Shown here piece after piece: positions 20,975 to 41,323 of a DNA stretch of 64,000 nucleotides. Every line of letters starts with the position of its first letter. Position 1 is the first letter of the stretch. Origin of the DNA: Haliea alexandrii (GTDB lineage: Bacteria > Pseudomonadota > Gammaproteobacteria > Pseudomonadales > Halieaceae); assembly GCF_003719295.1 (NCBI RefSeq), contig NZ_RFLW01000003.1:248001-312000 (forward strand). Reading direction: 5' to 3'. The translations under genes were made by a program, and so were the position numbers. A model generated the notes under the pieces. That model was not told the origin of the DNA. It ran no database searches and saw only the letters and a list, made by a program, of their open reading frames with translations.

Positions 20975-21041
20975 AAAGGCTGGAAATAAGGCTGCACTGT
21001 CCGAAAGCGACACCGGAGTCTCACTTTCTGCCAATGAGAAC

Positions 21042-23996: not shown

Positions 23997-24126
23997 TCAG
24001 CAATTCTAGACGATTTCGTATGACTTTGATCGTTTCTCGAATGGGCACGTGGCGCGCCCCCAGCTACAGTTTCTGCCGAGATCCAAACCCGCTATCGCGG
24101 CCACCAACAACCACCAGGAGATTCTC

Positions 24127-25979: not shown

Positions 25980-26031
25980 TACCCATCGCCGTTCGCACAT
26001 CGAAACTTCACACATTAGAAAAGGAAATGAA

Positions 26032-26343: not shown

Positions 26344-27610
26344 ATTTCTCATTCTGTTTTTCACGACACTCATCACGCTCATCGTCTGGAACGCGTCGAT
26401 ATTTCTTGCCGCCAGCGAGGGTTGGTTCAAATCACCTATTGTAGGGAAGGCCTCAGCTACATCCTTTCTCGATGCCGTAGAACGTACGGTGGCGCAAACT
26501 CACATTGGTAATTTCGCAATGATCCTGATTGAGGAGAATGAGGTGGCTGCAAGCTACTTCATGTCTTCCGGCGCGCCCGTTGATAAGTCCTCAGTCTTTC
26601 AAGTCGCGTCCCTCGGAAAGTGGCTCACGAGCTGGGGCGTTATGGTGCTCGTAGAGGACGGGCAGATCAGCCTCGACTTACCTGTCTCAAACTACCTCAA
26701 ACGCTGGCAGTTGCCGCCGAGCGAATTCGACAACTCTGCCATCACTGTACGCAACCTTCTGAGCCACACTGCCGGACTGGATGATGGTCTTGGCTACGAT
26801 GGCTTTGACAAGCCTGAGGATGTTCAGACTCTGGAAGCATCCCTAACCCGGGCCCTTGACGCTTCGTCCGGAAACACTGGAATCGTGAAACTTGGAGGCG
26901 AACCAGGATCCGGATGGAGCTATTCCGGAGGGGGCTATACGCTTCTCCAACTATTAATTGAAGACGTTTCTGGCATGCCGTTTAACGACTTCATGACAAC
27001 GCGCATCTTCGAGCCGCTCGGCATGGAGCAAACGACCTTCGATCATAAAATGGCCATAGAGAATGGGCTCGCTGAAAATTATGACCTGGCAGGACAGACC
27101 GAACCTTTTCGGTGGTATACCGCGCTTGCGGCCACATCGCTGTTCACATCAGCAGAGGATCTTTCCACCTTCATTACCGCGCAGATGGAGGAGGATGGGC
27201 AATCTGTCTTGTCAGACGACGCACTTCAGCTGATGCGGACGCCTCATGCCTCACAGATGGGTGCCGATATCTGGGGATTGGGATTGATGCTCTATGCTCC
27301 CAACAATGAGGCGGGATACATCATAGGCCATGACGGCAATAACGGCCCTGCCATCAACACAGTCGCTCGTTTCGACCCAGCCAATGGCAACGGAATCGTT
27401 ATCCTCTCGACTGGGAGCGACAGTCTGGCAACCCGAATGGCTGGGGAATGGGTCTTCTGGAAGACGGGCAATATCGACAGCCTTATGTTTATCATGGCCG
27501 TTGAGCGCATGCTTCTCTGGATGGCCATTGGCACGGGTCCAATCCTGATCGGCGGGCTGATCCTCGGATGGCGGTCGCGAAATGCTAGAGCAGGCTGTGC
27601 GCGCGCATGA
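26336..27610 (+). CDS. class C beta-lactamase-like serine hydrolase, membrane-anchored
   Basis: Start at GTG 26336 (AAGGA nine bases upstream), 424 residues. An N-terminal hydrophobic helix (LILFFTTLITLIVWNASIFLA) acts as signal anchor. The catalytic SxxK is S92-L-G-K95, and the second motif is Y196-S-G (WSYSGGGY; family YxN changed to YSG). Further conserved segments are LLSHTAGLDDG and GHDGNN (third box position). A second hydrophobic helix near the end (MLLWMAIGTGPILIGGLILGW) predicts a C-terminal membrane span. Such proteins are esterases/DD-peptidase relatives rather than antibiotic-resistance enzymes. Overlaps the DUF1330 gene by eight bases; last gene of the unit. Confidence 0.87.
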   Translation: MAKFLILFFTTLITLIVWNASIFLAASEGWFKSPIVGKASATSFLDAVERTVAQTHIGNFAMILIEENEVAASYFMSSGAPVDKSSVFQVASLGKWLTSWGVMVLVEDGQISLDLPVSNYLKRWQLPPSEFDNSAITVRNLLSHTAGLDDGLGYDGFDKPEDVQTLEASLTRALDASSGNTGIVKLGGEPGSGWSYSGGGYTLLQLLIEDVSGMPFNDFMTTRIFEPLGMEQTTFDHKMAIENGLAENYDLAGQTEPFRWYTALAATSLFTSAEDLSTFITAQMEEDGQSVLSDDALQLMRTPHASQMGADIWGLGLMLYAPNNEAGYIIGHDGNNGPAINTVARFDPANGNGIVILSTGSDSLATRMAGEWVFWKTGNIDSLMFIMAVERMLLWMAIGTGPILIGGLILGWRSRNARAGCARA

Positions 27611-27691
27611 CTGAAGAATCCCCGACCCTCCACATACTCTGCCAGACTGCGCGCCGCGCCCCGACCAAATGTCGATGCGCAACAGTGCCCG

Positions 27692-27706
27692 TCACTCCCA
27701 CTCGAT
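27692..27706. other. attachment-site core copy of the guaA 3' end (left island boundary)
   Basis: TCACTCCCACTCGAT here matches the guaA tail at 39746-39760 (TCATTCCCACTCAAT) at 13 of 15 bases in the same orientation. On the minus strand this copy still reads Ile-Glu-Trp-Glu-stop, the exact GuaA C-terminus, with only synonymous changes. The 3' end of guaA is a known target for genomic-island integrases. The copy marks the far end of an element about 12 kb long. Confidence 0.65.
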
Positions 27707-27764
27707 TATAAATAAGACTTTTTTCTCTCTTACTATCAAAGGCTTATTTTCCTGTAAATCGACA

Positions 27765-27784
27765 ATACCATGAAAAATACCATG
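27765..27784 (+). repeat. ATACCATG direct repeats at the left island end
   Basis: ATACCATG occurs at 27765-27772 and 27777-27784. The same octamer recurs near the guaA end (39466-39473, 39534-39541 and inverted at 39561-39568). Repeated short motifs flanking an attachment core are typical arm-type binding sites of tyrosine integrases. Confidence 0.5.
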
Positions 27785-27838
27785 CTCAGAAATTTCTTGA
27801 ATATATTCCTCTGGATGTTCTGCTAAACCCTTTGGGTA

Positions 27839-27974
27839 CGAGGGATTCGAACCCTGAGCTATGCCATTTTCCGCCTCGCAATGCCTCCTAATGCCCTTTA
27901 AATCAGAGAGTTAAAAAATGTGCCTGGCATTTGAGGGCATCTAAAGGCGTGAAGGTGGTCCCATGGTGGTCCCA
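27839..27974 (+). repeat. 136-bp direct repeat, copy 1 (tRNA T-arm/integrase arm module)
   Basis: Ungapped alignment with 38479-38614 gives about 83% identity by eye over 136 bases. Each copy starts with a tRNA T-arm-like segment (on the minus strand AGGGTTCGAATCCCT here), followed by an inverted-repeat region and ends in doubled GGTCCCA motifs (GGTGGTCCCATGGTGGTCCCA in two halves). It looks like half of an integrase recognition site. No integrase gene is seen beside it. Confidence 0.65.
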
Positions 27975-28511
27975 AGAATGTCCAATCCGAATTCCAGGGA
28001 AGCGCTCAATCGTCATTCTATTAAATCATTCACGCCCCCTCTCGCTGACCACAATATTGGTAGTGTTGCGCTGACTCTGCTTTCCGACAGCAACCGATTA
28101 GGACTGCGAAGACGCAAGGAAGAGACGCACGCAGGAACACACCCAGCAGATCTGATCTCCAACAGCAGTTTTACTGCACGCCTTGGACGTGGCATTACTC
28201 AAGCTACTGCCCCAATCTGGTTCGTTCCGCACCATGGGGACCCAAGGCGGAACCACCATGTTGGCACAAGGCAGCGATGGCCTCAGCAAACACTGCCTAC
28301 GAGCGCCATCAACCAGAGCAGGTCTCCCCGCATTGCTGAGCGACTAAAGTGATTAAACAGGGCCACGTAACCTTCACCTTGTGAAATGAATAGCTGTTCT
28401 ATAGTGGTATTTGCTTTGTAAGGCAAAGCACCCTGGTTTTTACCGTCAAACAACACTCTTTGACTTTCAATAGTGCCGATTTATTGAACCTGCTTGCTTG
28501 TAAAAATCAGA
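27975..28511. other. gene-poor stretch between repeat copy 1 and the hydrolase
   Basis: Frames of up to 129 codons exist on both strands but none carries a motif I know, a convincing ribosome site or a signal peptide. The region probably holds decayed mobile-element sequence. Near its end an 8-base inverted repeat (ACCTGCTT 28488-28495 / AAGCAGGT 28515-28522) straddles the hydrolase stop. Without a U-tract it is only a weak terminator candidate. Confidence 0.4.
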
Positions 28512-29480
28512 TTAAAGCAGGTGTTGGATAAACCAATTCATGGCTTCCTTGCGTGCGGAACTCAGGTTGTCACCTGTGTACATATCATAATGCCCGCCGG
28601 GAAAGGTGATATAACGCGAAGGCAGACGGTCTTTAATGGCATTGTACATCTGCTCTCCGTTATAGGCCGGGTCGTAGAGTGTCTCTCCCTCGGCTTCTAT
28701 GATCAGGGTGGGTGCAGTGAGTCGATCAAGGCTGGCCAGCGGATTAAAGTGCTTTAGCGCAACCCAATCAGGGTAGCCTTTGAGTTTTGCATCGCTATTT
28801 CCTTCTGGCCGCGGGTAAGGCGGAATATCGCCTCGCGCGGCCCTGGTTTCGGCCAGCCTCATCAGCCCAGAGGGTAAGTCCCTCAGGTTATAGGCATAGT
28901 TGACCGGCCCCATTTGGTTGACATAGGCCTTGATACGATCGTCACTTGTGGCGGTGACCAATGCCAATGCCCCACCCATGGACGTCCCAAATAAACCCAG
29001 ACTGTCGGGCACAACCTGTGGTTCACCACCAAGGTAATGCAGCGCTGCGCGCACGTCTGCCGACATTGAGAAAGGGTTCACTACCTTGCGTATGTGAACG
29101 GCTCTCACCTCGCCTTCAACCGCTTCTTCGGCAGGGGCCAACTTCGCGGAAGCCATCAAGGGCCCGTCACTTTCGCCCCAACTTTTGAAATCAAAGGCCA
29201 GCACAATAAACCCGGCTGCTGCGAAATGGACGGCATAATTCTTCCCCACATTCGCTTTACTGCCACCCCAGCCCGGAACCAGCAGGATGCCGGGCAGCTT
29301 CTGATCTGCTGCCATATTGCCAGGCTTGTAAATATCTCCAGCCAGGCGGACGCCCTGGCTCCAGATTACTACAGCCTCACGATCAACCCCTGCAGTCTCC
29401 CCGGCGAAAGTGATCAGCGAAAGCCCACTGCTTGCTAACACCAGCATGCTGAGCAGGTAGTATCCCGCGCGTGCTCTCAT
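28512..29480 (-). CDS. secreted alpha/beta hydrolase (dienelactone-hydrolase/peptidase-like)
   Basis: A 322-residue exported hydrolase. Signal peptide about 1-28 (LSMLVLASSGLSLITFAGETA). The fold is evident from LPGILLVPGWGGSKANVGKNYA, the nucleophile elbow GTSMGG with Ser167, the acid region LTAPTLIIEAEGETLYD, and the histidine in FPGGHYDMY near residue 298. It follows the TonB receptor with a 27-base gap and probably shares its promoter. That places a periplasmic ester- or amide-splitting step right after import. The substrate class cannot be decided from the sequence. Confidence 0.85.
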   Translation of the reverse strand: MRARAGYYLLSMLVLASSGLSLITFAGETAGVDREAVVIWSQGVRLAGDIYKPGNMAADQKLPGILLVPGWGGSKANVGKNYAVHFAAAGFIVLAFDFKSWGESDGPLMASAKLAPAEEAVEGEVRAVHIRKVVNPFSMSADVRAALHYLGGEPQVVPDSLGLFGTSMGGALALVTATSDDRIKAYVNQMGPVNYAYNLRDLPSGLMRLAETRAARGDIPPYPRPEGNSDAKLKGYPDWVALKHFNPLASLDRLTAPTLIIEAEGETLYDPAYNGEQMYNAIKDRLPSRYITFPGGHYDMYTGDNLSSARKEAMNWFIQHLL

Positions 29481-29507
29481 GGCAGTGCCCTGGTGTCTTC
29501 CACGCGT

Positions 29508-31943
29508 CTAGAAGTTGTAAGTCAACCTGAGCCCATAGGTACGCGGCGCTGTCAGGCTGTAAGCAGTGGTGTCATTGATGGTGCTAGGGCGCTCTTTAAA
29601 GAAGACTTCGCGGTCGTCGCCGATATTTTTGACATAGGCCGTGACTTCCCAGGTCAGGTCAGTTGAACCGGCAGTGAGTCGCGCGTCCCAGCGATCGTAA
29701 CTGTCGAGCAGATCATAATCATCGTTGTTAAACACCGAGGTGTATTGCTCGTCGGTAAACATGTAGCTGGTGGTAGCCGTCCAGTCCAGTGACAGCATTT
29801 CCCAGTTATAAATCAGGTTGGCAGAGAAACTGGTTTCCGGTGCCAAAGGGAAGCTGTTGCCAGAAAGGTCCTGTGTGCCGGTGCACAGCGGGTCCAGACC
29901 GTTACCCTCCCTGAGTGGACCGAGGCTGCAGGCGTTGTTGTCTACCGACTCGAAATCCTTGTACTCAGTGTCGTTATAAGACGCTGCCATACTGAAGGTC
30001 AGGCCCTCAGTGAGAAGCGCAATCAGTTCCGCCTCTAGCCCCCATGCCTCGGCTTCTTCAGCGTTTTCATAAACAGTAAGAGGGACGCCTTCGATGATAT
30101 CCGACTTGAGTACCTGCAGATCGCTGTAGTCGTAGAAGTAAGCAGCGGTTGTCAGGTTCAGGCGCTGATCCCAAAAGCTACCCTTGTAGCCAATTTCAAA
30201 GGACAGCAGATCCTCGGGGTCTACAGAACCGACCTCGTCACCACCAGTGGGAGTCATCAGGTTAAATCCACCTGAACGATACCCCGTTGCGGCAAATCCA
30301 TAGACAAAGTGATCGTCATTGAAGAAGTGGTCCAGCCCAATGCGCCAAGTCACTTTGTTCCAGTCATCCTTGATATCCCGATAAACCGTTGGATCGTCCG
30401 GGTCTCCTACCCATTGCACGAAATAATTGTCACTGGCATCTTTTTCATCGTAGGTATAGCGCAGCCCCACGGTCAGCACCGTGTCCTGGGTGAGATCCCA
30501 GTTCACCTGGCCATAAGCCGCGTAGGAGGTGGTATCGACGGTGGCGGCACCGTTAAACAGGTAGCCATTCTCCACATCGACCGGCACCGGCCCGCCACCT
30601 ACAAAGTTTGCCAGCACTGCATAGGTCTCCCGCAACTCCTGGTTATGCTCGATAAACGCAAGTGCCTGATCTTCTTCACTTTCGTAGTAATAGAGGCCAC
30701 CAATAAAGTTTATAGCGCCACCAAGATCGCTAATGAACTGCAGTTCATGGGAGGTGAACCTCGCGTCCTGGGAAAACGGGCGAGTGGTATCGGCGGGTGT
30801 CAATGTGTAACCCGTGAGCGCAGATATGGGTAGGCCGGGCGTCAGAAACAACTGACTCCAGTCGAGACCGGAATCCTGGGCACGGATCAGGTCTGCGTCG
30901 TAATCAGACGCGTATTCGAATTTGGAATAACCGAAGGTGTACTTCAGCGCGAAACTGTCAGCATCGTAGTCGCTGATGAAAATAGCGGTATCACGCTCAT
31001 TATCAACGAAGGGCTTACGATCGATTGAAACATCCTTATCATCTCGCAGGGCGGGGTTGTCCCGCGCCATCCCCTGCAGGGTGTTAACAAAACTTTCGCC
31101 CGGAAAAAAGCCGCCAAAGTTCAACTGGGCTCCGGTGTCCACATCGTTTACAGGCTGAATAAAGTCAGTCGAGAACGCATCAAGCACATAGGGGTTTTCT
31201 GGCGTGGTACTGCCATCGCGAGTAAAGACCTTTAAAGAGTTACTCCAGCCCTCAGTGGTGTCGTGGTTGAACGCGATAGTGCCGTAGGTACTCTCCGCCA
31301 GATCGTAATCCCGACCACTGTCTACATCCTCCTGAAACCCCTCTTTGCGTTCAATTTGCGACAGAGCGGCGAGCACGGATAACTTGTCGGTGACAGGCCC
31401 GCTAACAATACCCTGGAGAATATAGGAGTCGTAATTGCCGAGTTCCGCAACGACTTTACCTTCCCACGCTTGCGTCGGCTGTTTGCTGATAAAGTTGATT
31501 GCGCCGCCGATGGAGTTGCGCCCGTAGAGCGTGCCCTGTGGGCCGCGCAGCACTTCAATACGGTCGATATCGAGGAAGTTCGAGTAGCTGAACACATCAC
31601 TTTCCGTGTTGTACACGCCATCCCAATAGAGCCCGACACCCGGGTCAGATCCCAATGCAACGGTTGCGCGCCCGACTCCACGGATGCTGATACGGCTGGG
31701 GGCGACGGTGAGAGAGGGTGTGCGCACCGCAATATCCTGGGCATTCTCGATGCCCAACTGATCGCGCATTTCGGCATCAAACGCGGTGACCGCTGTGGCG
31801 GTTTCCATGAGGTTGGATTCCACTCGGTTGGCCACGACGACTATTTCTTCCAGCACCATTTGCGCACTGGCGGTAGACGCGGTCAAACCCACCCCTGCGG
31901 CCGCCAATGCTCGTACCAATATTTTCTTGCGGTTAAAACTCAT
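29508..31943 (-). CDS. TonB-dependent receptor of the island
   Basis: An 811-residue outer-membrane receptor. Signal peptide about 1-27 (..STASA/QM), TonB box MVLEEIVVVANRV, and plug motifs IRGVGRATVALGSDPGVGLYWDGVY and VLRGPQGTLYGRNSIGGAINFISKQP, the type often found in marine Sphingomonas/Haliea-like degraders. The C-terminal strand is APRTYGLRLTYNF with terminal Phe. It heads a two-gene unit with the secreted hydrolase. About 220 bases upstream is a perfect TGTCAC-N4-GTGACA site for the Crp/Fnr-type regulator encoded at 36976. Confidence 0.9.
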   Translation of the reverse strand: MSFNRKKILVRALAAAGVGLTASTASAQMVLEEIVVVANRVESNLMETATAVTAFDAEMRDQLGIENAQDIAVRTPSLTVAPSRISIRGVGRATVALGSDPGVGLYWDGVYNTESDVFSYSNFLDIDRIEVLRGPQGTLYGRNSIGGAINFISKQPTQAWEGKVVAELGNYDSYILQGIVSGPVTDKLSVLAALSQIERKEGFQEDVDSGRDYDLAESTYGTIAFNHDTTEGWSNSLKVFTRDGSTTPENPYVLDAFSTDFIQPVNDVDTGAQLNFGGFFPGESFVNTLQGMARDNPALRDDKDVSIDRKPFVDNERDTAIFISDYDADSFALKYTFGYSKFEYASDYDADLIRAQDSGLDWSQLFLTPGLPISALTGYTLTPADTTRPFSQDARFTSHELQFISDLGGAINFIGGLYYYESEEDQALAFIEHNQELRETYAVLANFVGGGPVPVDVENGYLFNGAATVDTTSYAAYGQVNWDLTQDTVLTVGLRYTYDEKDASDNYFVQWVGDPDDPTVYRDIKDDWNKVTWRIGLDHFFNDDHFVYGFAATGYRSGGFNLMTPTGGDEVGSVDPEDLLSFEIGYKGSFWDQRLNLTTAAYFYDYSDLQVLKSDIIEGVPLTVYENAEEAEAWGLEAELIALLTEGLTFSMAASYNDTEYKDFESVDNNACSLGPLREGNGLDPLCTGTQDLSGNSFPLAPETSFSANLIYNWEMLSLDWTATTSYMFTDEQYTSVFNNDDYDLLDSYDRWDARLTAGSTDLTWEVTAYVKNIGDDREVFFKERPSTINDTTAYSLTAPRTYGLRLTYNF

Positions 31944-32160
31944 GAGAACCCCTCATACTGATTATTTATTAGCGCGGACATCCCTTGCGCGTATAGCCGT
32001 CAACAAGTGGAGGACCAAAGGCTTCCTGGATAGCTATCGCGGGTATGTACTTGCCGGTGTTTACGCATTTCATCGCCAATCACTTATTTATACTTAAGCG
32101 CAATCTGGCGATGTGGCACTTCGGATACAGTCAATGTAAACGCAAAAAGAAACAGCGCAC

Positions 32161-32176
32161 TGTCACACAGGTGACA
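32161..32176 (-). promoter_or_regulatory. Crp/Fnr-type operator upstream of the island TonB receptor
   Basis: TGTCACACAGGTGACA is a perfect 6-base dyad with a 4-base spacer, i.e. TGTCA-N6-TGACA, the Crp/Fnr spacing. A -10-like TACATT lies on the minus strand at 32138-32133, placing the operator centre about 42 bases upstream of the predicted start, the class II activator position. It is nearly identical to the site at 36958-36973. Confidence 0.65.
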
Positions 32177-32274
32177 GGGGGTGGCAGATTCGTGAATCTC
32201 TTGATTTGCTCCCCAGGTGGAGCGATTGTAGAGCGTAATTGAGTCGGTCATCCTGTCCGGACGAGGTCGCCCTT

Positions 32275-33261
32275 TTACCGCAGGTCGGTGTCGCCGGAGA
32301 AAAACGCCCAGATGACCTCTGCGGTTGTGAACTCGTGGCTGGTTCTACCCAGTATTCGTGGCAACCGGTATTTTTCGTTCGGCACCGAGTGGCCTCCCCC
32401 TTTCACGGTGATTAGCCCGACCGACACACCAGTAGGTGAGGACCACTTGGCGCTGGTGATGGTGGTGCCGTCATCCGGCGCCCGGTCATCCCAGGCCTGC
32501 TGCTGTGCGGCCCCACTGTAGCCCGCTAATGCCGCCCAGTAGCGCGCGGTATCAAAACTCGACAGGACATGCCCGCGACTGGTCTCGCCGAACACATCAA
32601 CCAGGCCTCCTGCATACGGATTGACGGGGTCCTCTGTGCCATTGATGATCAGTGTCGCGACCGCCTTGCCAGACGGCTCACAGTCCATGTTGTCCGGCAC
32701 AGGCAGATTGGCCGCGATGGGCGCAATGCCAGCAATCAAATCAGGCGCCTCCAGCGCGAGACGGAAGGCCATATGCCCGCCGTTGGAGAGCCCTGTCGCG
32801 TAGACATGGCGCGGGTCGGCGTTGTAGCGCTCTTCGAGCACCGCGACCAGGGCGCGGAAGAAACCCACGTCATCAATATTTTCAAGGTTAGCGCTGTATG
32901 AGGCGCCGCCCCGGCAATCATTCCAGTGGTTCTCATAACCATCTGCATAGACAATCACCAGACCCTCACGGTCAGCCAGCAGTTCAAACGCGCGATAGCT
33001 GGCTTTGCGCATCTGGGTGGCACTGCCCATGGACCCATGCAAAACGAAAAGCACCGGCGGCTGACCCGCCAGGGAAGATGGCGCATACGTTTGCCACGTC
33101 CGCACCTTGCCCCGGTGCTCCAGCGACCCGTGTTCCAGACGCCCCTCAGGTTCAGGCCCTTGGTATGCAGGAGAAGAGAACAACCACCAGGCCCCGGCCG
33201 CGACAACCGCAGCAGCGAGCAAGACAAGCCCGGCCAATAGTTTTAACAGTTTTTTTCGCAC
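32275..33261 (-). CDS. PHB-depolymerase/feruloyl-esterase-like (LpqC family) hydrolase, membrane-anchored
   Basis: Start taken at GTG 33261 (VRKKLLKLLAG, 328 residues), because upstream codons overlap the symporter and lack family similarity; an ATG at 33312 is an alternative. An N-terminal hydrophobic helix (LLAGLVLLAAAVVAAGAWWLF) serves as anchor or signal. Esterase family 1 motifs are VLFVLHGSMGSATQM, the nucleophile Ser159 in GLSNGG, Asp211 in NGTEDPVNPY, and His in KGGGHSVPN. This family includes secreted polyhydroxyalkanoate depolymerases, feruloyl and acetylxylan esterases. Last gene of the ADC-HAD-symporter-esterase unit, following the symporter by about 125 bases. Confidence 0.83.
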   Translation of the reverse strand: MRKKLLKLLAGLVLLAAAVVAAGAWWLFSSPAYQGPEPEGRLEHGSLEHRGKVRTWQTYAPSSLAGQPPVLFVLHGSMGSATQMRKASYRAFELLADREGLVIVYADGYENHWNDCRGGASYSANLENIDDVGFFRALVAVLEERYNADPRHVYATGLSNGGHMAFRLALEAPDLIAGIAPIAANLPVPDNMDCEPSGKAVATLIINGTEDPVNPYAGGLVDVFGETSRGHVLSSFDTARYWAALAGYSGAAQQQAWDDRAPDDGTTITSAKWSSPTGVSVGLITVKGGGHSVPNEKYRLPRILGRTSHEFTTAEVIWAFFSGDTDLR

Positions 33262-33388
33262 AGCACTCAACCTGCCCTTTTCTTTATCTTGACGCCCGAC
33301 GGGTGCGAACATATCGCTGAAGGTCTGCAACCGCGCCAAAATCGCCTGCACACAACAACCCATACAAAAAGTTGCAAGACAGCCTGGC

Positions 33389-34861
33389 TTAGCCGCTCTT
33401 ACCCGCGGCAATGCCCGCCATAATCTCCTGATGACGCCGCCCGGTCATCGGGTAACGATTGGAAACCAGCACCGTGGCGACAAAGAGTATCAGCATCACC
33501 GGGCCAGAGAATACCGCAAGGCTGAGTACAGCCTCCTGTGACACCGTGTCTGGCGTGGCACTGCGAGGGAAGCGAATAATGTCCAGGCCCACGCCGGCAA
33601 AGAAACTGCCCAGCCCGTAGCTGGCCTTGGTGGCAAACGAGCGTGCGGCAAAAAACAGCCCTTCTTCGCGCTTGCCGCTGTCCAGCTCATGCTCGTCGAT
33701 ACTGTCTGAAAGCATGGAGTCCAGGAGAATGATATAAGCGATGAAAAACACCTGTGAGACGCCATTGACGACAAAAATCAACAGGAACTTGGTGGTCGTG
33801 CTCATCAGCGGAAGCAAGCCGCCAAAGTAGAGAATCTGTGGCGAGAAGGCGAAGACGCCCCCGGTAATCGCACAGATCGCCAACGCCTTTTTCTTGTCGA
33901 ACCGGCGCGACAGCGACTGTGCCACCAGCGAGGCAAAGATAATACCTACCAGCACAGAACTCGCCAGGCCCGCCAGGTGTTCGGGCTGGAACTCGAAGAC
34001 ATAAGTCGCCACATACACCAACAGTGTCTGGGTGACGCCGGCGAGCGTGCTGAAAATCAGCACCGAGGCGAACAGGATGCGAAAGGAATGCTGTTTCAAT
34101 GTGCTGAATACGTCCAGCAGCGCCAGCAGTGGCGTGCGGTCTGATGCCATTGTTACCGGCTTGCTCAGATAAGGAATCGATTTACGCGTCCCAAAGACTG
34201 ACAAAAGCATCGCTACCGTACCCAGTACTCCGCAAAACAGGCCGAAGGCTGGATAGCTGGCAGGGTTGAGCATACCGTTTGCGAAGCTCTCAGAGGGGGG
34301 AAAAAAAACCGCAAAGCCAATAACGCTGGTTACCAGAATACCGGCGTAGGTAAAAAACACGCGGTAACCGATCAACGAAGTGCGCCCATGATAGTCCGTG
34401 GCCAGTTCAGCCCCCAGGGACAGGTGGGGAACGAAGAACAGCGTCAACATAAGCCTCACCGCGATGGCGCCGCCCAACATCCAGCTGAACAGCCCCATCT
34501 CTCCCAGCGCACCCGGCGGATTGAACAGCATCGCCATGGCCAGGCCAAAGGGTATCGCGCCGGCGAGCATGAAAGGGTGCCGCCTGCCCCAGCGCGAGCG
34601 GAAGCGGTCGGATACCTGCCCCACCATCGGATCTGTGATGGCGTCGACCATCAGCGCCAGCAATGCGGCCAGGCCGGCCAGGCTCCCCGGCAGACCCAGC
34701 ACCTGGTTGTAGTAAAAGAAAAGAAATGTGCTGAAGGCGGATTGTTTAATCCCGTCCGAGAGCTGACCTACGCCATAGTAGAGGCGAACACGCAGAGGAA
34801 TTTCCGCTGCCTTGCCGATGCGCGAGCGCAACGCATCGTTTTTACCCGGTTGAGAGCTCAT
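33389..34861 (-). CDS. GPH-family (MelB-like) cation symporter
   Basis: A 490-residue inner-membrane transporter with twelve predicted helices. It has the GPH/MelB N-terminal look (RLYYGVGQLSDGIKQSAFSTFLFFYYNQVLGLPGSLAGLAALLALMVDAITDPMVGQVSDRFRSRWGRRHPFML), where the conserved Asp residues of helix II (D-AITDPMVG-..D) bind the coupling cation. The start ATG overlaps the stop of the dehydrogenase gene (ATGA), so it is translationally coupled. GPH members carry glycosides, hexuronides and, in some branches, steroid-like or sulfonated compounds, so substrate remains open. Likely brings the product of the periplasmic hydrolases into the cell. Confidence 0.88.
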   Translation of the reverse strand: MSSQPGKNDALRSRIGKAAEIPLRVRLYYGVGQLSDGIKQSAFSTFLFFYYNQVLGLPGSLAGLAALLALMVDAITDPMVGQVSDRFRSRWGRRHPFMLAGAIPFGLAMAMLFNPPGALGEMGLFSWMLGGAIAVRLMLTLFFVPHLSLGAELATDYHGRTSLIGYRVFFTYAGILVTSVIGFAVFFPPSESFANGMLNPASYPAFGLFCGVLGTVAMLLSVFGTRKSIPYLSKPVTMASDRTPLLALLDVFSTLKQHSFRILFASVLIFSTLAGVTQTLLVYVATYVFEFQPEHLAGLASSVLVGIIFASLVAQSLSRRFDKKKALAICAITGGVFAFSPQILYFGGLLPLMSTTTKFLLIFVVNGVSQVFFIAYIILLDSMLSDSIDEHELDSGKREEGLFFAARSFATKASYGLGSFFAGVGLDIIRFPRSATPDTVSQEAVLSLAVFSGPVMLILFVATVLVSNRYPMTGRRHQEIMAGIAAGKSG

Positions 34862-36039
34862 TCACCTATTTCTTCAGCGTTCAAATAGGTCAGGACAAGC
34901 GCGGCCTTCCGGCGGTCTATGCGCGATGCGCCCACCTCTTGTTCCACCGCGGCCTGGAACGACTCGTGCCCCAGTTTGGCGAGTATCTCAAATGGGCCTG
35001 CATCAAGATAAGTACCTACCTTCCATGCCCGATCTATCTCCCCGGGCTGCGCTACCCCGGCCATCGCGATCAGGACAGCATTGCCAATCAGGGCCACATT
35101 TAAAGCGCCGGAAACCACTTCGGACGGGCTACCGGGATTAGCAGAGTGTAAAAAGTCCGGGTGCTGATAGGCCGGTTGCGGGTACTGGTAAAAGCCCTCA
35201 CCCGCCTTCATACCCAGCTTCCCCTTCTCTGTATAGCTTCTCAGGAACTGAATGGCGCGTTCCCGAAGTGCGGGCAAATGGTGCTTCCTTCCCGCATCTT
35301 CCCAGCTGTCCAAAATGACGCCCAGCCCAAAGAGATCAATCATTCCGAAGGGACCCATGGCCGCATTCCGGTCAATCATCCAGGTACGGTCAACATCCTC
35401 AATACCAGCAGCACCGTCCAGCATCAGCGCCTGTGCGGTGCTCAAAGCGGGCCCCAACAGCGCATTCAGCACGTAACCGGGATATTCTTTTTGCAGTACC
35501 AGGGGAACCCCGTTGATACTGAGGACGTAACGCCGCAACAAGTCGATAACCGCTGCATCTGTCCTCGGCCCAGGTACAACATCCACCAAAGGCGACCCCA
35601 AATGGGAGTGCAGCGCGGCAAAGCGGTCACCCCGTGAAACCACGTCCTCAATCTGGGAAACCAGTAATACGGAGGAATTGGTGGTGAGAATGGTCCCGGG
35701 GGGGCAGACTTCATCCAGCCGCCGGTGGATGGCGCGCTTCACGTCCAGTCGCTCATAAACCGATTCGCTGACCAGGTCGGCAGCTGCAGTCGCGTCGCCC
35801 AGGTCCGCGCAAATACGCACGCGCGCCAACGCCGGGGCTATGTCCTCCTGGGCACAATATCCCCCGCCTACGAACATCGCTGCAAATTCACTTTGCCGCT
35901 GCGCTACCTGATCCAGCGTCGCCTCATCCACATCATACAAGGCGACCTCATAGCCGCAGATGGCCGCGGCCAAGGCGTTATAGCAACCCATGGTCCCGGC
36001 TCCAACGTAACAGACGCGTTTGATCTCATTGAGCGGCAT
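34858..36039 (-). CDS. 3-hydroxyacyl-CoA dehydrogenase family protein
   Basis: Start at ATG 36039 (MPLNEIKRVCYVG, 393 residues), joined to the upstream decarboxylase-family stop as TAATG; the longer frame is rejected. The Rossmann loop G13-A-G15-T-M-G18 and downstream acidic residue (ALYDVDEA) indicate NAD binding. LTTNSSVLLVSQIEDVVSRGDRFAALHSHLGSPLVDVVPGPRTD corresponds to the catalytic Ser/His-Glu region of L-3-hydroxyacyl-CoA dehydrogenases, with NSSVL in place of NTSSL. KEYPGYVLNALLGPAL fits the dimerisation region. It probably oxidises a 3-hydroxyacid or its CoA ester. A second C-terminal half (residues ~290 on) resembles the duplicated HAD C-domain. Confidence 0.85.
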   Translation of the reverse strand: MPLNEIKRVCYVGAGTMGCYNALAAAICGYEVALYDVDEATLDQVAQRQSEFAAMFVGGGYCAQEDIAPALARVRICADLGDATAAADLVSESVYERLDVKRAIHRRLDEVCPPGTILTTNSSVLLVSQIEDVVSRGDRFAALHSHLGSPLVDVVPGPRTDAAVIDLLRRYVLSINGVPLVLQKEYPGYVLNALLGPALSTAQALMLDGAAGIEDVDRTWMIDRNAAMGPFGMIDLFGLGVILDSWEDAGRKHHLPALRERAIQFLRSYTEKGKLGMKAGEGFYQYPQPAYQHPDFLHSANPGSPSEVVSGALNVALIGNAVLIAMAGVAQPGEIDRAWKVGTYLDAGPFEILAKLGHESFQAAVEQEVGASRIDRRKAALVLTYLNAEEIGE

Positions 36040-36848
36040 TAGCGGATCACTCGCGGCAACCTGTCGGGGACAATCAGGTTTGTACTGCCGCGCACCACCA
36101 GTGCCGGACGCCAGGCGACTACCGGCAGGTCGGCCAGCGCGTTGACTATATGGTACTGGGTGGGGTTTTGCTCCCAGGACAGCTGTTGCCATTTCGCAGC
36201 ACCTTCTCCCACCCAGGCTTCCTTGATCACGTTTTCAGACGGAAACGTGGTGAACTCGTTCGTGCCCTCGTTGAAGCCACCGACGCCGGGAAAAAAGCGC
36301 CAGGCCATGGGGTTATCCCTGCCCCGGGTTACCTCTTCATTGGCGGCAATCTCAGCTGCAGTAGGTTCGCGCAAGTGTGCAATATCGATATCAAGAAACT
36401 TGTGGCCAAAGTGACTGGCGTTGGTGTGCCACGCCCCGGCAATGACACTGTGATCCTGAATGTCGGCGAAGACTTTGGGTATTCCCTGTAACTCCCTGCC
36501 CGTGAGGATGGGATCAGCGAGGTTCTCCCACATGACCAGGGTATAGTCGCCCGACAGCGTGTCATCATCGCCCTCGAACTCAGCCGCTGCGCTTACCGCG
36601 ACCAGGTTGTAGCCATGCCCTGCGAGCCAGTCTACCTCGCGGTTGCAGGCATACGTAATCGTGACCACGGCATCCTCTGCCACAGAAAAAGGCGCAGGGA
36701 GGTATTTGGCCAATTTGTCTCGATCGGTCACGAAAGATACCACCATACTGGTGACGTCTCTGTACCAGCCAGAAGCCCTGGGGGAAAACGGCCGCGCGCC
36801 GAAATGCGCGGGCATCATGTAACTCGCCGCTGGATCCAGTTCAAACAT
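36039..36848 (-). CDS. acetoacetate decarboxylase (ADC) family enzyme
   Basis: Start set at MFELDPAASYMMP (36848; AGGA upstream), 269 residues. Matches the ADC fold. Lys125 in TGRELQGIPKVF corresponds to the Schiff-base lysine of acetoacetate decarboxylase, and Glu119 of GRE is also conserved in the family. Bacterial ADC-like enzymes include true decarboxylases and C-C or aldolase-like variants, so the reaction is not certain. Being first in a transcription unit with a hydroxyacyl-CoA dehydrogenase and a symporter, it fits a beta-keto acid split or decarboxylation step. A regulator site sits just upstream at 36958. Confidence 0.86.
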   Translation of the reverse strand: MFELDPAASYMMPAHFGARPFSPRASGWYRDVTSMVVSFVTDRDKLAKYLPAPFSVAEDAVVTITYACNREVDWLAGHGYNLVAVSAAAEFEGDDDTLSGDYTLVMWENLADPILTGRELQGIPKVFADIQDHSVIAGAWHTNASHFGHKFLDIDIAHLREPTAAEIAANEEVTRGRDNPMAWRFFPGVGGFNEGTNEFTTFPSENVIKEAWVGEGAAKWQQLSWEQNPTQYHIVNALADLPVVAWRPALVVRGSTNLIVPDRLPRVIR

Positions 36849-36928
36849 TGCCAGTCCTGTTTTTATCAAGACAGGTTCCAAAGGCATGCAGACTGGAACC
36901 CGTGTACGTTACAAAACGATCAGGCGCA

Positions 36929-36973
36929 GAGACTAGCAGGCGACCTTGAAAGTACCCTGTCACTTAGGTGACT
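36929..36973 (-). promoter_or_regulatory. Crp/Fnr-type operator and -10 for the ADC unit
   Basis: TGTCACTTAGGTGACT at 36958-36973 has 11 of 12 arm bases in dyad and the same half-sites as the element at 32161. A -10-like TAGTCT is found at 36934-36929 on the minus strand, so the operator centre falls about 42-44 bases upstream of the predicted start, the same geometry as at the TonB receptor. It begins two bases beyond the stop of the regulator gene. Confidence 0.6.
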
Positions 36974-36975
36974 GG

Positions 36976-37674
36976 TCACTCGAACAGGCTTAATTCCCGT
37001 TGCAGGTCTTCGATATTGGGAATCAGCAGACGGTCTTCATGACTAACCACGACACCGCGCTCGGTCCAATCACGAAATATCTTATTGACCCGCTGCCGGG
37101 AACCCAGGGATAGGCGGGCAAATTCATTCTGGCTGACCTTGATATCCAGCAGCACGCCATTGTCGACCTGTTTACCGTGGTCGCGCGCAAAGTCCAGCAG
37201 ACGACCTGCCACCCGCGACTGCAATGGGTAAAACAGAATCCCCGCCATCAACACGTGCAGGTCGCGGATGGTCTGTTGATTGTGGCGAAACAGGTTGCGG
37301 TACATGATCGGGTACCGGTCTCCCACCGCCAGCACCACGTCGCGGGATATGACCAGTATGCGGCACGCTTCGATGACCCGGGCGTCGATGACCCTCTCCT
37401 GATCACCCAGCAACGACGGCAACCCCAGCCAGGTACCCGCCTCATGATCCACCAGGGCAAACTCCTGGTCATTGGGACTGGAAATGGATACCCGCACCCG
37501 GCCTGAAAGCAGGCAGCATATCTCACGCGTAGGCAGCCCCTGTTCATAGATATAACTTGACACAGAGAGCTCCCTCTCCGTGGCAGAAGCGGTCAGTTCA
37601 TCGAGTGCGATGTCCGGCAGTCCTTGAAACCACGGACTGTCCTGCACAATTTCACGGGGACTGTTGCCTGCCAT
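36976..37674 (-). CDS. Crp/Fnr family regulator, non-cAMP type
   Basis: A 232-residue regulator with the N-terminal cyclic-nucleotide-binding fold (residues ~15-130) and a C-terminal winged helix (VSQNEFARLSLGSRQRVNKIFRDW). The cAMP-pocket R-S pair of Crp is missing (ERVIDARVIE instead of ..RSA..), and there are no Cys clusters for an FeS centre, so the ligand is unknown. The recognition helix GSRQRVNK differs from Crp (CSRETVGR) at the residues that read TGTGA, consistent with the TGTCA half-sites found in the island. It sits just upstream of the ADC unit on the same strand. Confidence 0.87.
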   Translation of the reverse strand: MAGNSPREIVQDSPWFQGLPDIALDELTASATERELSVSSYIYEQGLPTREICCLLSGRVRVSISSPNDQEFALVDHEAGTWLGLPSLLGDQERVIDARVIEACRILVISRDVVLAVGDRYPIMYRNLFRHNQQTIRDLHVLMAGILFYPLQSRVAGRLLDFARDHGKQVDNGVLLDIKVSQNEFARLSLGSRQRVNKIFRDWTERGVVVSHEDRLLIPNIEDLQRELSLFE

Positions 37675-37809
37675 CCGCTTGATCCTGTTTCGGTTCTGTA
37701 AACGTGCCTCAAGTATAGCGCCCAGCAGCCCCCAATGTGTTGCCGATGCGGCAGTGAAGCCAGTAAACGTTAGTCAAAGGGGCGCGTTTCCTGCAAACTC
37801 TATTGCGCT

Positions 37810-38256
37810 ATGCTGACACTACTACACTGCCTGACCCTGCTACTGTTGCTATTGACCCTGGCCCCGCTGTCGCGACGGCCCCAGTGGTGGATACGAGGCC
37901 TGGACTTTCCGCGTTTGCAACTGCTGGCGCTGGCGACTGCCCTGGCGGCCTTGTACATGGTCCCTCTGCTCAATAGTAAAGCACCCGCTCACGTACTAGT
38001 CATTGGACTGGCGATAAGCCTCGGTTGTGCAATCGAACACGGCAGAAGGCTCATTGCCTACAGCAGGTTTGCGCGCCCGGAACTAGAGTCTTGCCCCGCA
38101 ACCGGTGAGCAATCGGTAGTGCGTATCATGATCGCCAACGTGTTAATGAGTAACCGTCAATATTCCAAACTGGTGGAGCTGGTCTCGGCACAGGAGCCAG
38201 ACCTGGTGCTCTTCCTGGAAAGCGACAAGGCATGGGTACACTCCGCAGGGGAATAG
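37810..38256 (+). pseudogene. endonuclease/exonuclease/phosphatase (EEP) membrane protein, N-terminal fragment
   Basis: 148 codons. Hydrophobic helices LTLLHCLTLLLLLLTL and FPRLQLLALATALAALYM, then HVLVIGLAISLGCAIEH, are followed by VVRIMIANVLMSNRQYSKLVELVSAQEPDLVLFLESD, which is the first EEP strand-helix (the N..N and E motifs). Full members are above 320 residues and carry the D..N/H catalytic core; here the frame terminates just after the first motif (real similarity ends around 38237). It is cut by a rearrangement that joins it to an oppositely oriented thioredoxin fragment. Confidence 0.7.
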
Positions 38257-38347
38257 CCCTCGCCTCGGCAGTTTTGTGGTACATGAATCCAACTTCCGCA
38301 TCAAATTTTTGGCACGCTCCACAGTCTGGACTGAAAAAGTACAGCAA
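38245..38347 (-). pseudogene. thioredoxin-like (SoxS/W type) protein fragment
   Basis: MLYFFSPDCGACQKFDAEVGFMYHKTAEARAIPLR is read here. The CxxC (CGAC) followed by a K/R-rich 'P.Y.KT.E.R..PLR' is characteristic of small thioredoxin-like SoxS/W proteins. Only the N-terminal active-site part remains, directly abutting the broken EEP gene on the other strand. Confidence 0.52.
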
Positions 38348-38402
38348 TTCGGCGTCAGGGTCTGAGATATGCAGAGCCCTCTTCTAGGGGTTTCTGAAGG
38401 TT

Positions 38403-38420
38403 TGGTCCCAAAATGGTCCC
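38403..38420 (+). repeat. GGTCCCAAA doublet, integrase arm-type repeats
   Basis: Two copies of TGGTCCCAAA lie in tandem immediately left of the tRNA-Ser-like core. The same GGTCCCA unit is doubled again at the other side of the core (end of repeat copy 2) and at the end of repeat copy 1. Confidence 0.5.
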
Positions 38421-38468
38421 AAACGGAGCAGGGAAGAGATCTTATTCCAATGAAATCAACCCGTTATA

Positions 38469-38495
38469 TGGCGGAGAGCGAGGGATCCGAACCCT
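38469..38495 (-). other. tRNA-Ser 3'-end-like attachment core
   Basis: On the minus strand these 27 bases read AGGGTTCGGATCCCT then CGCTCTCCGCCA, i.e. T-loop, T-stem 3' strand, acceptor 3' strand and an encoded CCA as in tRNA-Ser. The 5' part of a tRNA is absent, so it is an attachment-site scar, not a gene. GGTCCCA arm repeats flank it on both sides, which is the layout of an attP. Confidence 0.6.
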
Positions 38496-38614
38496 GAGCC
38501 ATGCATTTTTACGCCTCGTCATGCCCTCTAATGCCTTATAAATCAGAGAGTTAAAAATTGGACCCGGCATGAGGGGGCGTCAGAAGGCGTGAGGATGGTC
38601 CCATGGTGGTCCCA
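38479..38614 (+). repeat. 136-bp direct repeat, copy 2
   Basis: Matches 27839-27974 without gaps at about 83% (23 differences counted by eye) in the same orientation, with the segment AAATCAGAGAGTTAAAA fully conserved. The two copies bracket about 10.6 kb containing the receptor/hydrolase/symporter/regulator genes. Confidence 0.65.
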
Positions 38615-38640
38615 CAGAAACACTCCAACACAGAAAGAAA

Positions 38641-38943
38641 TCAAGCTACGATGGGCTTGGCTTTCTCGATTCGCGCTCTGCGCTTTGGCGTGTTCAGCGC
38701 TTTCCCCAACTCGTTTCGCTGCTGCGAATTCAACCAAAAGTCAGCCGTATCGCTAGAGACCATGGCAAGCATCAATGCGGTGTCCGCCGTCACGGCGCGA
38801 CGATTTCTACACGACTCGTTGACAGTTTTTCGACTACTTCCCATCGATTCGGCAAGTTGCCCCTGGGTCAATCCCATAGGCATGAGAAATTCCTCTGTGA
38901 TCATTTCGCCCACACTGACGGGTTGTCGTTTCGTAATATTCAT
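38641..38943 (-). CDS. HigA-type antitoxin, apparently orphaned
   Basis: A 100-residue XRE-fold protein starting at MNITKRQPVSVGEM (GAGGCAGG upstream). ITEEFLMPMGLTQGQLAESMGSSRKTVNESCRNRRAVTADTALMLA is the helix-turn-helix of HigA antitoxins, and ALMLAMVSSDTADFWLNSQQR is the conserved post-HTH helix. HigB toxins are normally encoded just upstream on the same strand, but that space (38956-39240) is filled by an IS5-type remnant whose end lies about 55 bases away. I see no toxin frame. It may still autoregulate. Confidence 0.8.
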   Translation of the reverse strand: MNITKRQPVSVGEMITEEFLMPMGLTQGQLAESMGSSRKTVNESCRNRRAVTADTALMLAMVSSDTADFWLNSQQRNELGKALNTPKRRARIEKAKPIVA

Positions 38944-38998
38944 CGCCTGCCTCATCGATAATCGTGGTTATCCAGACAAATGTCTTTAGCCTCGCCTC

Positions 38999-39387
38999 GG
39001 CCTTGTTGCATGACTCAATGACGAGTCGATCTCTATGTTGAAGCGTTCTCATTACGTGATGCGATAGCCATCCGCTATCCGTAGCTGCGTCATTCTGTTC
39101 AAAATCGTGCACGCAAGTGCAGCCTCTGTCTTCTTTGACGCCACAGTGCGACTTCGCATGGAACCGCCGATGATCGCTTTGCATCGCCACATTGCAGTTT
39201 CCACCAAGCTACGTCGAGTATAGCCTTAGTCATGCGCCCTCCGTCTGTGGCCAGTGGCACCAATCGCTTGGATGGTCGCGTTGCGTTGACTAGATATGCT
39301 GGCCCCGCTCCGCGTCTGTGCATCCTGTCGGGGTGGTATCAGGATCTGCGGTGTTCCCGGACCGCGAGCCTTGATCGCGGTATAGAC
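38999..39387 (-). pseudogene. IS5-family transposase, C-terminal remnant with terminal repeat
   Basis: One minus-strand frame runs from 39387 to the TAA at 39054 (111 codons) with a single internal TAA at 39228. Before it: VYTAIKARGPGTPQILIPPR. After it: GYTRRSLVETAMWRCK and ALACTILNRMT. The Y-(2)-R-(3)-E-(6)-K signature of IS4/IS5 DDE transposases is intact (Y TR R SLV E TAMWRC K), with the final catalytic Glu. The plus-strand sequence GGCCTTGTTGCATGACTC at 38999-39016 resembles an IS5/IS903 terminal inverted repeat. The N-terminal half is missing; the remnant joins abruptly to an integrase start at about 39388. Confidence 0.7.
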
Positions 39388-39442
39388 ACTTGTAGATCTT
39401 GTCCTTGGGCTTCAAGTTGCGCAGCTTGGTATCTGTCAGCAT
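39388..39442 (-). pseudogene. tyrosine integrase (P4/DUF4102 type), N-terminal stub
   Basis: From ATG 39442, preceded by a strong GGGAGGA, the frame reads MLTDTKLRNLKPKDKIYK, the standard first 18 residues of P4-like integrases (DUF4102 arm-binding domain). Immediately afterwards the sequence switches to the transposase remnant. Position and orientation (reading away from guaA, about 300 bases from its stop) are those expected of the integrase of a guaA-targeting island. Confidence 0.68.
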
Positions 39443-39745
39443 CACAAGTCCTCCCGTAGAAAATAATACCATGATTCTATACGGTATATTTTTCTATATA
39501 TCCTCTTCTATATCAGTAAGTTAGCTTATTTTAATACCATGAATGAACTGAAAAATGTAGCATGGTATTTCGTCATAGCCCTGACGTTCCAGAGAACAGC
39601 ACCATGTTTTATACCATTGAAAAAGTTTGCTTGGAGGTGCCAGAGCGTGCCAGCCGCTGCCAGACAAAAAGGAGAATAACTCTATATTTATAGTACTTTA
39701 ATGATATTTATTGCTTGCAGGTGCCCGCCAGTGCCAGACGCGAAA
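39443..39745. other. AT-rich attachment arm region next to guaA
   Basis: No gene is visible. Contains ATACCATG at 39466 and 39534, its inverse at 39561, a near copy at 39611, and a run of GTGCCAG/GCCAG repeats (about 39634-39660 and 39721-39738), all plausible integrase/excisionase sites. The base composition is distinctly lower in GC than the adjacent guaA. Confidence 0.5.
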
Positions 39746-39760
39746 TCATTCCCACTCAAT
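39746..39760. other. attachment-site core at the guaA stop (right island boundary)
   Basis: TCATTCCCACTCAAT is the last four codons plus the stop of guaA on the opposite strand. Its partner is at 27692-27706. The truncated integrase stub and arm-type repeats lie immediately inside this boundary. Confidence 0.65.
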
Positions 39761-41323
39761 AGTCGCCGGCGGCTTGCTGCTCACGTCATAGGTCACCCGT
39801 GAAACACCCGATATCTCATTGATAATCCGATTCGACACCGTTTCCAGCAGCTCATAGGGCAAATGCGCCCAGCGCGCTGTCATGAAATCCACGGTTTCCA
39901 CTGCACGCAGGGCAATCACCCATTCATAGCGACGACCATCCCCCACCACGCCCACGGATTTCACCGGCAGAAACACGGCAAAGGCCTGGCTGGTTTTGTG
40001 GTACCAGTCGGCGCGATGCAACTCTTCTATGAAGATGGCATCGGCGCGCCGCAGCAGCTCGGCGTATTCCTTTTTCACTTCGCCAAGAATCCGTACGCCA
40101 AGGCCCGGGCCGGGGAAGGGGTGGCGGTACACCATGTCGTAGGGCAGCCCCAGTTCGAGGCCGATGCGCCGCACCTCGTCCTTGAACAGTTCGCGCAGCG
40201 GCTCAACCAGCTCCATCGCCATGTCATCCGGCAGGCCACCCACGTTGTGGTGTGACTTGATCACATGCGCCTTGCCGGTTTTCGCACCGGCAGATTCAAT
40301 CACGTCCGGGTAGATAGTGCCCTGCGCCAGCCAGTTCACATCCTTCAGCGTGGTGGCTTCTTCGTCGAATACCTCAATGAAGGTGTTGCCGATGATCTTG
40401 CGCTTGGCTTCCGGGTCCGCCTCGCCGGCGAGCTTGCCGAGGAAAAGGTCCTCGGCATTCACACGAATGACCTTCACACCCATGTTGCGCGCAAACATTT
40501 CCATGACCTGGTCGCCCTCATTCAGGCGCAACAGTCCATTGTCGACAAACACGCAGGTCAACTGGTCGCCAATGGCTCGGTGCAATAGCGCCGCCACGAC
40601 GGACGAATCCACACCGCCCGACAGGCCCAGCAGCACCTTGCCGCTGCCCACGGTATCGCGCACGCGCGCGATCGCATCCTCGACAATATTGGCCGGCGTC
40701 CACAATGCCTCGCAACCACACAGTTCCAGCACAAAATGCTCGAAGATGCGCTTGCCCTGCAGAGTGTGGGTCACTTCGGGGTGAAACTGGATGCCGTAAA
40801 AGGGCTTGCTGCGGTGTGCCATGCCGGCAATCGGGCAACTGTCGGTGGCCGCCACCAGCTCAAAGTCGGGTGGCAGCTTGACGACCTTGTCTCCGTGGCT
40901 CATCCACACATCCAGCAAGCTGTTGCCGGCGCTGTCGAAGTGATCCCGGATGTCGTGGAACAGCCCGGCCTGGGTCACCAGGCGAATTTGTGCGTAGCCG
41001 AATTCACTGGTCGGCGATGCGCTTACCTGCCCACCAAACTGCTCCGCCATGGTCTGCATGCCGTAGCAAATGCCCAGCACCGGCACGCCCAGCTCGAACA
41101 CGCAGACCGGTGCCCGCGGTGAGCCGGGGGAAGGCACGGATTCGGGGCCGCCGGACAGGATAACGCCGCTGGGCGCAAACTCGCGAATCTCGCTTTCACT
41201 CATGTCGAAGGCGCGTATCTCGCTGTATACGCCCACCTCCCGCACACGACGCGCAATCAGCTGGGTGTACTGGGACCCGAAATCCAGTATGAGGATCCGG
41301 CTGGCGTGAATATCTGCTGTCAT
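39746..41323 (-). CDS. guaA: GMP synthase (glutamine-hydrolysing)
   Basis: A 525-residue cytosolic enzyme that aminates XMP to GMP using glutamine and ATP. The N-terminal class I glutamine amidotransferase domain shows [17 protein letters not shown] and [15 protein letters not shown], with the Cys nucleophile and the G(F/I)QFHPEV His motif ([11 protein letters not shown]). The ATP-pyrophosphatase domain has [12 protein letters not shown], and the C-terminal dimerisation/XMP domain ends PPATIEWE. Twelve bases downstream of guaB, so the two form the normal guaBA operon. Its last five codons form the attachment core of the genomic island lying to the left. Confidence 0.98.

Follow-up and report, generated by a model that had tools for sequence, protein, structure and literature searches.

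What occupies the 12 kb behind guaA in Haliea alexandrii, and how was it acquired? The locus was studied in a window of 64,000 bp, the whole stretch of DNA analysed here (positions 248001-312000 of contig C6, NZ_RFLW01000003.1, from a genome of 3.96 Mb). In this window the gene for GMP synthase, guaA, is followed by a block that ends in a second copy of the last guaA codons. With a probability of about 0.92, judging from its sequence, the block is a guaA-targeted island that keeps its arm sites and duplicated core, has a destroyed P4-type integrase and forms the layer nearest guaA of a larger acquired stack.

The window was compared with 140 genomes of the family Halieaceae, the window genome included; its genus is represented by this genome and seven others. 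Relatives are denoted by G numbers, among them G003 (Halieaceae bacterium UBA5044, of the window's genus), G136 (Halioglobus sp. HKST-UBA220) and G149 (Parahaliea mediterranea DSM 21924, Parahaliea being a member of Halieaceae). Arms, cores and segments were surveyed in 1.63 Mb of sequence from 43 regions, which were partly picked by a search with the module at the far attachment site (attR); in G009 and G014, about 1-1.6 kb beside known pieces fell outside the surveyed sequence. Integrases were sought using a P4-type profile, single P4-type sequences and one XerD query, a combination that other integrase types could escape. Of 356 integrase relatives in the named collection, the best 80 were kept. 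Open reading frames (ORFs) were called mechanically and guaA-tadA gaps were obtained by subtracting search coordinates by hand. Published systems were compared through the available parts of their descriptions. The features that define the block are as follows.

27681..27691, minus strand: probable remnant of the left arm (CGGGCACTG) of the next, older unit, from its likeness to the terIS of CR2
27692..27706, minus strand: attR core ATCGAGTGGGAGTGA, by pattern match
27692..27805, minus strand: attR, consisting of two CATGGTAT arms, an AT-rich spacer and the core, with 78 bp from arm to core, by module comparison
39374..39442, minus strand: integrase stub, the first 23 codons of a P4-type (GIsul2-type) integrase followed by a break, by homology
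39443..39745, minus strand: region of the guaA-side attachment site (attL), with CTGGCA-type repeats beside guaA and then ATACCATG arm sites; 88.5% identical to the attL of G142, with a guanine-plus-cytosine (GC) content of 39%
39746..39760, minus strand: attL core ATTGAGTGGGAATGA, the final guaA codons (IEWE-stop), by pattern match
39746..41323, minus strand: guaA, intact, the target gene, by identity to congeners (97-99% to five of the seven and 93% to G004; G002 yielded fragments only)

The pattern TCAYTCCCACTCRAT, the reverse complement of IEWE-stop with the synonymous choices observed, matched the window exactly twice, at 27692-27706 and 39746-39760 on the same strand, and any match at all was found in 0 of 100 shuffles. 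Allowing two mismatches still gave two matches, but two were then reached in 7 of 100 shuffles. Two synonymous changes within the 15 bases distinguish the copies, so that the correctly oriented duplicate of the guaA tail proposed at 27692 in the initial annotation stands; core to core, the block measures 12,054 bp. A codon-degenerate scan of the 112 kb from guaA to tadA on the same contig returned just these two cores, and none between 27692 and tadA, where the older ~97 kb lies. Insertion at the guaA 3' end together with a far-end duplicate of the core GAGTGGGA is the arrangement of guaA-type islands of the GIsul2 family. The GGGAAT form of the core was present at all seven guaA genes (in G003, G046, G056, G136, G141, G142 and G149) that precede an intact or contig-cut guaA integrase; the difference between the two cores therefore fits recombination in which the element supplies the new end of guaA.

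The 15-bp copy forms the outermost part of a longer right end, which shows conservation across ~115-283 bp; this length is what makes the case, earlier called strong in spite of the short copy, stronger still. A 111-bp far-end module was found, whole or in part, in 25 of the 140 family genomes at 45 places, and it was most similar (88%) to the far ends of integrase-bearing islands in G046 and G142. Alignments across attR reached 87% over 115 bp with G046 and, as a composite, 72.7% over 275 bp with G142. Within the survey, CATGGTA pairs occurred 28 times on the guaA-sense strand and never on the opposite one; a core followed 77-78 bp downstream in 22 of these (78 bp in the window) and was not found in the other 6. 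Counting real guaA ends, strict cores with a stop-like triplet numbered 73 on the guaA strand and 0 on the other, and codon-degenerate IEWE matches in 962 kb numbered 40 and 3, respectively. At the outer edge of the core, the 19 bases made up of positions 27681-27691 and the 8 core bases next to them agree with the published terIS of CR2 at 17 positions (PMC9376610, available text). A 53-codon frame on the minus strand (27692-27853), running in frame through attR into IEWE-stop, was set aside as probably due to chance because the related G009 module is not open by eye.

At both ends, arm sites accompany the cores. ATACCATG occurs 7 times in the window against 1.36 expected, a number reached in 0 of 100 shuffles, and five of the occurrences lie in the two claimed ends (27765, 27777, 39466, 39534 and 39561). 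A second arm type, CTGGCACT, is weaker by itself, with 6 occurrences (a number reached in 3 of 100 shuffles) and a single one in the guaA-side end; it rests on alignment with intact islands. Of the arm-type repeats reported inside both ends, the first type holds and the second is the weaker when taken by itself. On the guaA side, the sequence from 39745 to 39374 aligns with attL plus the integrase start of G142 (88.5% over 372 bp), of G046 (87.7%) and of five further integrase-bearing loci (68-74%). Both end modules of the block are hence homologous to those of integrase-bearing members.

The start codon of the integrase is located at 39442, 303 bp past the guaA stop, at the same distance as in G142 and G046. 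Homology to intact integrases ends after 23 codons, and searches of the block with both integrase families gave no other convincing piece, the remaining matches having E = 0.002 or worse and the 0.002 match falling on the stub itself. Accordingly, the P4-type integrase start noted next to guaA was confirmed, along with its later destruction: a remnant of 23 codons occupies the place of the intact gene. In G003 this place is taken by a full integrase of 398 amino acids with Phage_integrase and Arm-DNA-bind_3 domains, and integrases 92-96% identical lie behind guaA in G136, G149, G046, G142 and G056; in six relatives the gene starts 303-308 bp past the guaA stop. For the best 80 of the 356 integrase relatives, a guaA core was found 200-420 bp upstream of the integrase in 74 loci and a guaA end 306-334 bp away by tblastn in 73. 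Two of the six loci without a core (L266 and L303) had too little upstream sequence, and L289, L291, L292 and L327 are real exceptions within 600 bp. As integrase-bearing relatives show the guaA target, the duplicated core, the arm sites and the P4-type integrase, they support the interpretation of the block as a guaA-targeted island. Their att-bounded segments run 72, 75, 84 and 101 kb to the first far core, so the 12-kb block is a remnant or a rebuilt unit; the size of ~12 kb given earlier is correct as the distance between cores, not as that of a full island.

The use of guaA 3' ends as island targets, also part of the initial annotation, is documented for GIsul2 (PMC9376610) and ICERspD18B (PMC7775301) in the available texts, in line with the 74 loci above. 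In GIsul2, which shares the core GAGTGGGA, an internal hybrid att site is described as framing the integrase-less unit CR2-sul2, which is moved by the GIsul2 integrase (PMC9376610). The block resembles this system, as described there, in its guaA 3'-end location, its core, the integrase start beside guaA and an att-framed unit without integrase. By the same description it differs from GIsul2 in its dead integrase, its putatively catabolic cargo and a nested tRNA-Ser-like unit; neither sul2 nor rcr2 was among the 9 block ORFs scanned. ICERspD18B, a conjugative element of 28.5 kb from Rheinheimera sp. D18 (locus L297, with a guaA integrase 88% identical to the query family), is reported to transfer into guaA of Escherichia coli (PMC7775301, available text). 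It has the same site and core and a related integrase at guaA; unlike this transferring element, the block has no transfer gene detectable by Pfam among the 9 ORFs scanned. Dehalococcoides ssrA islands, in the available account, stand in tandem behind one gene, 15 of them without an integration module, and CIMEs (cis-mobilizable elements) were suggested (PMC3146451). They are like guaA stacks in their tandem order, in members lacking an integration module and in a fixed syntenic zone past the last repeat, and unlike them in using a serine recombinase and ssrA, versus a tyrosine recombinase and guaA here. Among titles found in the open literature on guaA islands, hotspots and tandem accretion, none described guaA arrays in Halieaceae. 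Song et al. in 2012 reportedly treated guaA-associated islands, located at the guaA 3' end and carrying P4-type integrases.

On its other side, the block adjoins further acquired DNA.

1..27680, no strand assigned: further hotspot DNA, not backbone, judged from GC content and distance to tadA

With tadA and purL located in the relatives, guaA and tadA were on one contig in 22 of 38 genomes. The gap between them was 15, 19, 64, 113 and 341 bp in five genomes, 1.5-31 kb in eight and 59-109 kb in nine; at ~109.5 kb, the gap of the window genome is the largest of the 22, and therefore all window DNA left of guaA lies inside it. GC content is 62.8% right of guaA, 54-55% in 1-27690 and 56% in the cargo. 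The serine-hydrolase gene earlier taken as the chromosomal flank consequently does not serve as one: it lies within this gap in low-GC DNA and, at E 1e-40, was found in only 7 of the 140 family genomes, the window's included as the sole representative of its genus. It is not beside guaA in G046, G050 or G014; in the remaining three carriers guaA was not located. The hotspot holds 76 ORFs of at least 150 amino acids, with 60% homologues in the hotspots of G005 (33), G001 (20) and G006 (19). By fifths from guaA to tadA, the fraction shared with these three genomes was 0/14, 3/14, 5/15, 14/19 and 13/14, and G006 displayed the same trend (0/8, 4/8, 9/9, 10/12 and 8/9). Sharing that rises with distance from guaA is predicted by repeated insertion at guaA, with newer material near guaA and older material near tadA, and the block is probably the newest layer of the 109-kb stack. 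Elsewhere in the hotspot, window positions 13511-18353 encode an FAD oxidase, an FAD-dependent oxidoreductase and an FGGY kinase in a row, without a match in the other regions at cut-offs of 30% identity and 60% of the length.

Inside the block, a second set of boundaries was found.

27839..27975, minus strand: outer junction of the nested unit, a TGGGACCA arm pair and a tRNA-Ser-like core joined to the guaA attR, from the repeat and from colinearity
27995..28321, minus strand: fragment shared with the G001 hotspot (88%)
28512..37674, minus strand: cargo, by Pfam, namely an alpha/beta hydrolase, a TonB receptor, an esterase, an MFS_2 transporter, a 3-hydroxyacyl-CoA dehydrogenase, an acetoacetate decarboxylase and a Crp-type regulator
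37810..38256, plus strand: ORF of 148 amino acids without a Pfam match, probably cut at the junction (by eye)
38403..38614, minus strand: inner (guaA-side) junction, a TGGGACCA arm pair with a core like a tRNA-Ser 3' end near 38496 and a second pair at 38403-38421
38641..38955, minus strand: helix-turn-helix (HTH) protein (PF01381), HigA-like by eye, with 82% amino acid identity to G002
39000..39373, minus strand: debris past the stub, part of which weakly resembles the C-terminus of a DDE transposase (PF01609, E = 0.13, below the cut-off)

A direct repeat of 136 bp (27839-27974 and 38479-38614, 83% identical, spacing 10,640 bp) brackets a nested unit of 10.6 kb that holds the cargo operon; the initial annotation had overlooked it. 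Three TGGGACCA pairs share one orientation, the inner copy having its second pair on its other side. Single TGGGACCA sites are not rare (7 found, a number reached in 5 of 100 shuffles). Many relatives contain short stretches that match the final 28-31 bases of the inner copy and resemble tRNA-Ser gene ends (putative); in the window genome, the tRNA-Ser(GCT) gene includes 16 bases that match the outer copy. The idea that the target is a tRNA gene within the block was rejected, as ARAGORN detected none in the window; the inner repeats do carry the core like a tRNA-Ser 3' end. Five genomes are colinear with the right end from the tRNA-Ser-like module to the guaA core: G005 and G038 at 81-82%, the G038 match stopping short of the core, and G142, G149 and G048 at 71-73%.

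In G149, an inner copy 71% identical to that of the window is followed by a second P4-type integrase gene. A tRNA gene lies near 13 of the 16 fetched integrases that exceed 45% identity to it, ten of these genes being tRNA-Pro and none tRNA-Ser, so its link to the tRNA-Ser-like core is one of position only. The nested unit of the window shows direct cores and arm sites and no convincing integrase piece, and it looks like the G149 unit minus its integrase. No integrase was detected with the P4-type profile near the tRNA-Ser-like modules of G009, G014, G018 and G007. On contig C3 of G014 (L260/L261), such modules stand 17.6 kb apart near very long ORFs, one of 1272 amino acids matching PADLOC models (PDC-M27C, E = 1.9e-74) and one of 1888 amino acids matching none.

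From its domain names, the cargo looks like a catabolic operon. A comparison with 24 other guaA-side regions, requiring 30% identity across 60% of the length, gave no match to it, and by tblastn the TonB receptor alone gave remote matches (23-35%); relatives of the dehydrogenase, up to 65% identical, occur in 21 of the other 139 family genomes. For the HTH protein no toxin partner turned up, no search having been aimed at one; a block related to the one carrying it sits behind an extra guaA core in G002. The resemblance of the debris to a DDE transposase (IS5-like) was too weak for it to be called one.

We propose the following course of events. An island of GIsul2/guaA type would have entered the guaA 3' end by tyrosine-recombinase recombination between GAGTGGGA cores, the element's copy of the last codons rebuilding guaA and the older tail being displaced to the opposite end (27692). 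A second unit with tRNA-Ser-like cores would have nested in the right end of the island, carrying the putative catabolic operon, and the guaA integrase would then have been lost after codon 23. What is left, attL and attR structurally preserved and no integrase between them, resembles a CIME. The boundaries, arms and spacing, the homology of both ends to integrase-bearing islands, the loss of the integrase, the hotspot and its gradient are shown by the sequences; the order of events is our inference, and the nested unit may have had a mobility of its own. The block could still be movable should a guaA integrase arrive, for instance with a newcomer.

Several observations weigh against a guaA-targeted island or blur its outline. 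An empty site was not seen, and in three of the six other serine-hydrolase genomes, the three with guaA located, guaA lies elsewhere. The 9 ORFs scanned included no recognisable backbone gene of an island of this type, and the cargo may stem from the nested unit instead of the guaA island. GGGAAT is not confined to guaA genes followed by an integrase: it recurs in extra cores of G009, G027, G038, G046 and G047, and G022 reads GGGAGT although it keeps an integrase stub. The sharing gradient is less regular in G005 (4/8, 7/9, 9/9, 8/10 and 8/8) and G001 (6/13, 0/11, 9/15, 11/12 and 7/11). Finally, the best relatives of the guaA integrase in the window genome are only 31-32% identical, so the block is probably immobile at present.

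Could the tRNA-Ser-like repeats, and not the guaA cores, define the block? A 10.6-kb unit would then have been received by an empty or collapsed older island, of which the guaA sites remain. The length, identity and spacing of the direct repeat, the three pairs in one orientation and the integrase gene adjoining the inner copy in G149 all fit this account, which we regard as possible and less probable than a guaA-targeted island. It is, however, compatible with the guaA frame. Against it, both modules are joined at the right end in G005, G038, G048, G142 and G149, single TGGGACCA sites are not rare and the G149 inner copy is just 71% identical.

A further alternative holds that the unit never had its own integrase here, being an integrase-less cassette placed in trans, and that the stub belongs to another island, later or earlier, whose body was deleted. 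Units of this kind exist: of 27 segments closed by an arm-bearing core, four have a full P4-type integrase and 23, spanning 1-46 kb, do not. In G017, four such segments fit within 14 kb, and two of 5 kb follow the integrase-bearing island of G046; excision and integration of CR2-sul2 by the GIsul2 integrase have been reported (PMC9376610, available text). Other integrase types were, however, lightly searched in these segments, the single XerD query giving one XerD-like ORF (E = 3.1e-8) in the first G038 segment, one of the 23. In the window, the stub stands at its normal place and is followed by debris, so that an integrase gene was once present, and we consider the in trans account less likely than not. 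"Decayed", the earlier term for the block, is apt for the integrase and may otherwise be half right, because integrase-less units are common and CR2-sul2 is experimentally mobile (PMC9376610). That a chance 15-mer and unrelated repeats explain the locus, as the shortness of the 15-mer alone might suggest, is practically negligible given the shuffle result and is refuted by the module conserved in 25 of 140 genomes.

The guaA-targeted island also bears on a wider pool of units. The far-end module was found on 3,935 of 72,556 PLSDB plasmid records, at 80-90% in 3,908 of them, and in 7 of 50,697 records of a phage collection, six labelled Acinetobacter; in the two plasmids examined, sul2 lies ~0.2 kb and ~2 kb from the module. 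Tentatively, there may be a cassette-like system behind guaA in Halieaceae, in which short integrase-less units, each ending in the same arm-plus-guaA-tail module, stack in one orientation and are moved in trans by a broad-host guaA integrase. CR2-sul2 on resistance plasmids would be one member of this old environmental pool and the window block, whose right end would house a second, nested integrase system, another. If such units are mobile in trans, guaA would be an acquisition site with one integrase and many cargoes, and a possible environmental source of CR2-sul2-like units. Taken by itself, the locus is an ordinary, well-preserved remnant of a kind of island already known; its wider interest is that a ~109-kb guaA-tadA gap in a marine bacterium is tied to an attachment module on thousands of plasmid records.

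Additional guaA copies were observed in three relatives. In G006 (L038), a second, partial guaA of ~597 bp (residues 327-525, 98% amino acid identity) lies 2.2 kb behind the full gene and ends in its own IEWE core, with two arm-bearing cores 5 and 9 kb beyond. Carriage of 597 bp of guaA was rejected as a general mechanism, the other arm-bearing cores shown holding the tail only. A second guaA, 90% identical, is present on the short contig C30 of G005 (L042) and is either a real copy or contamination. On contig C18 of G152 (L248), two near-full guaA copies stand 8.6 kb apart, and a third lies near the end of another contig.

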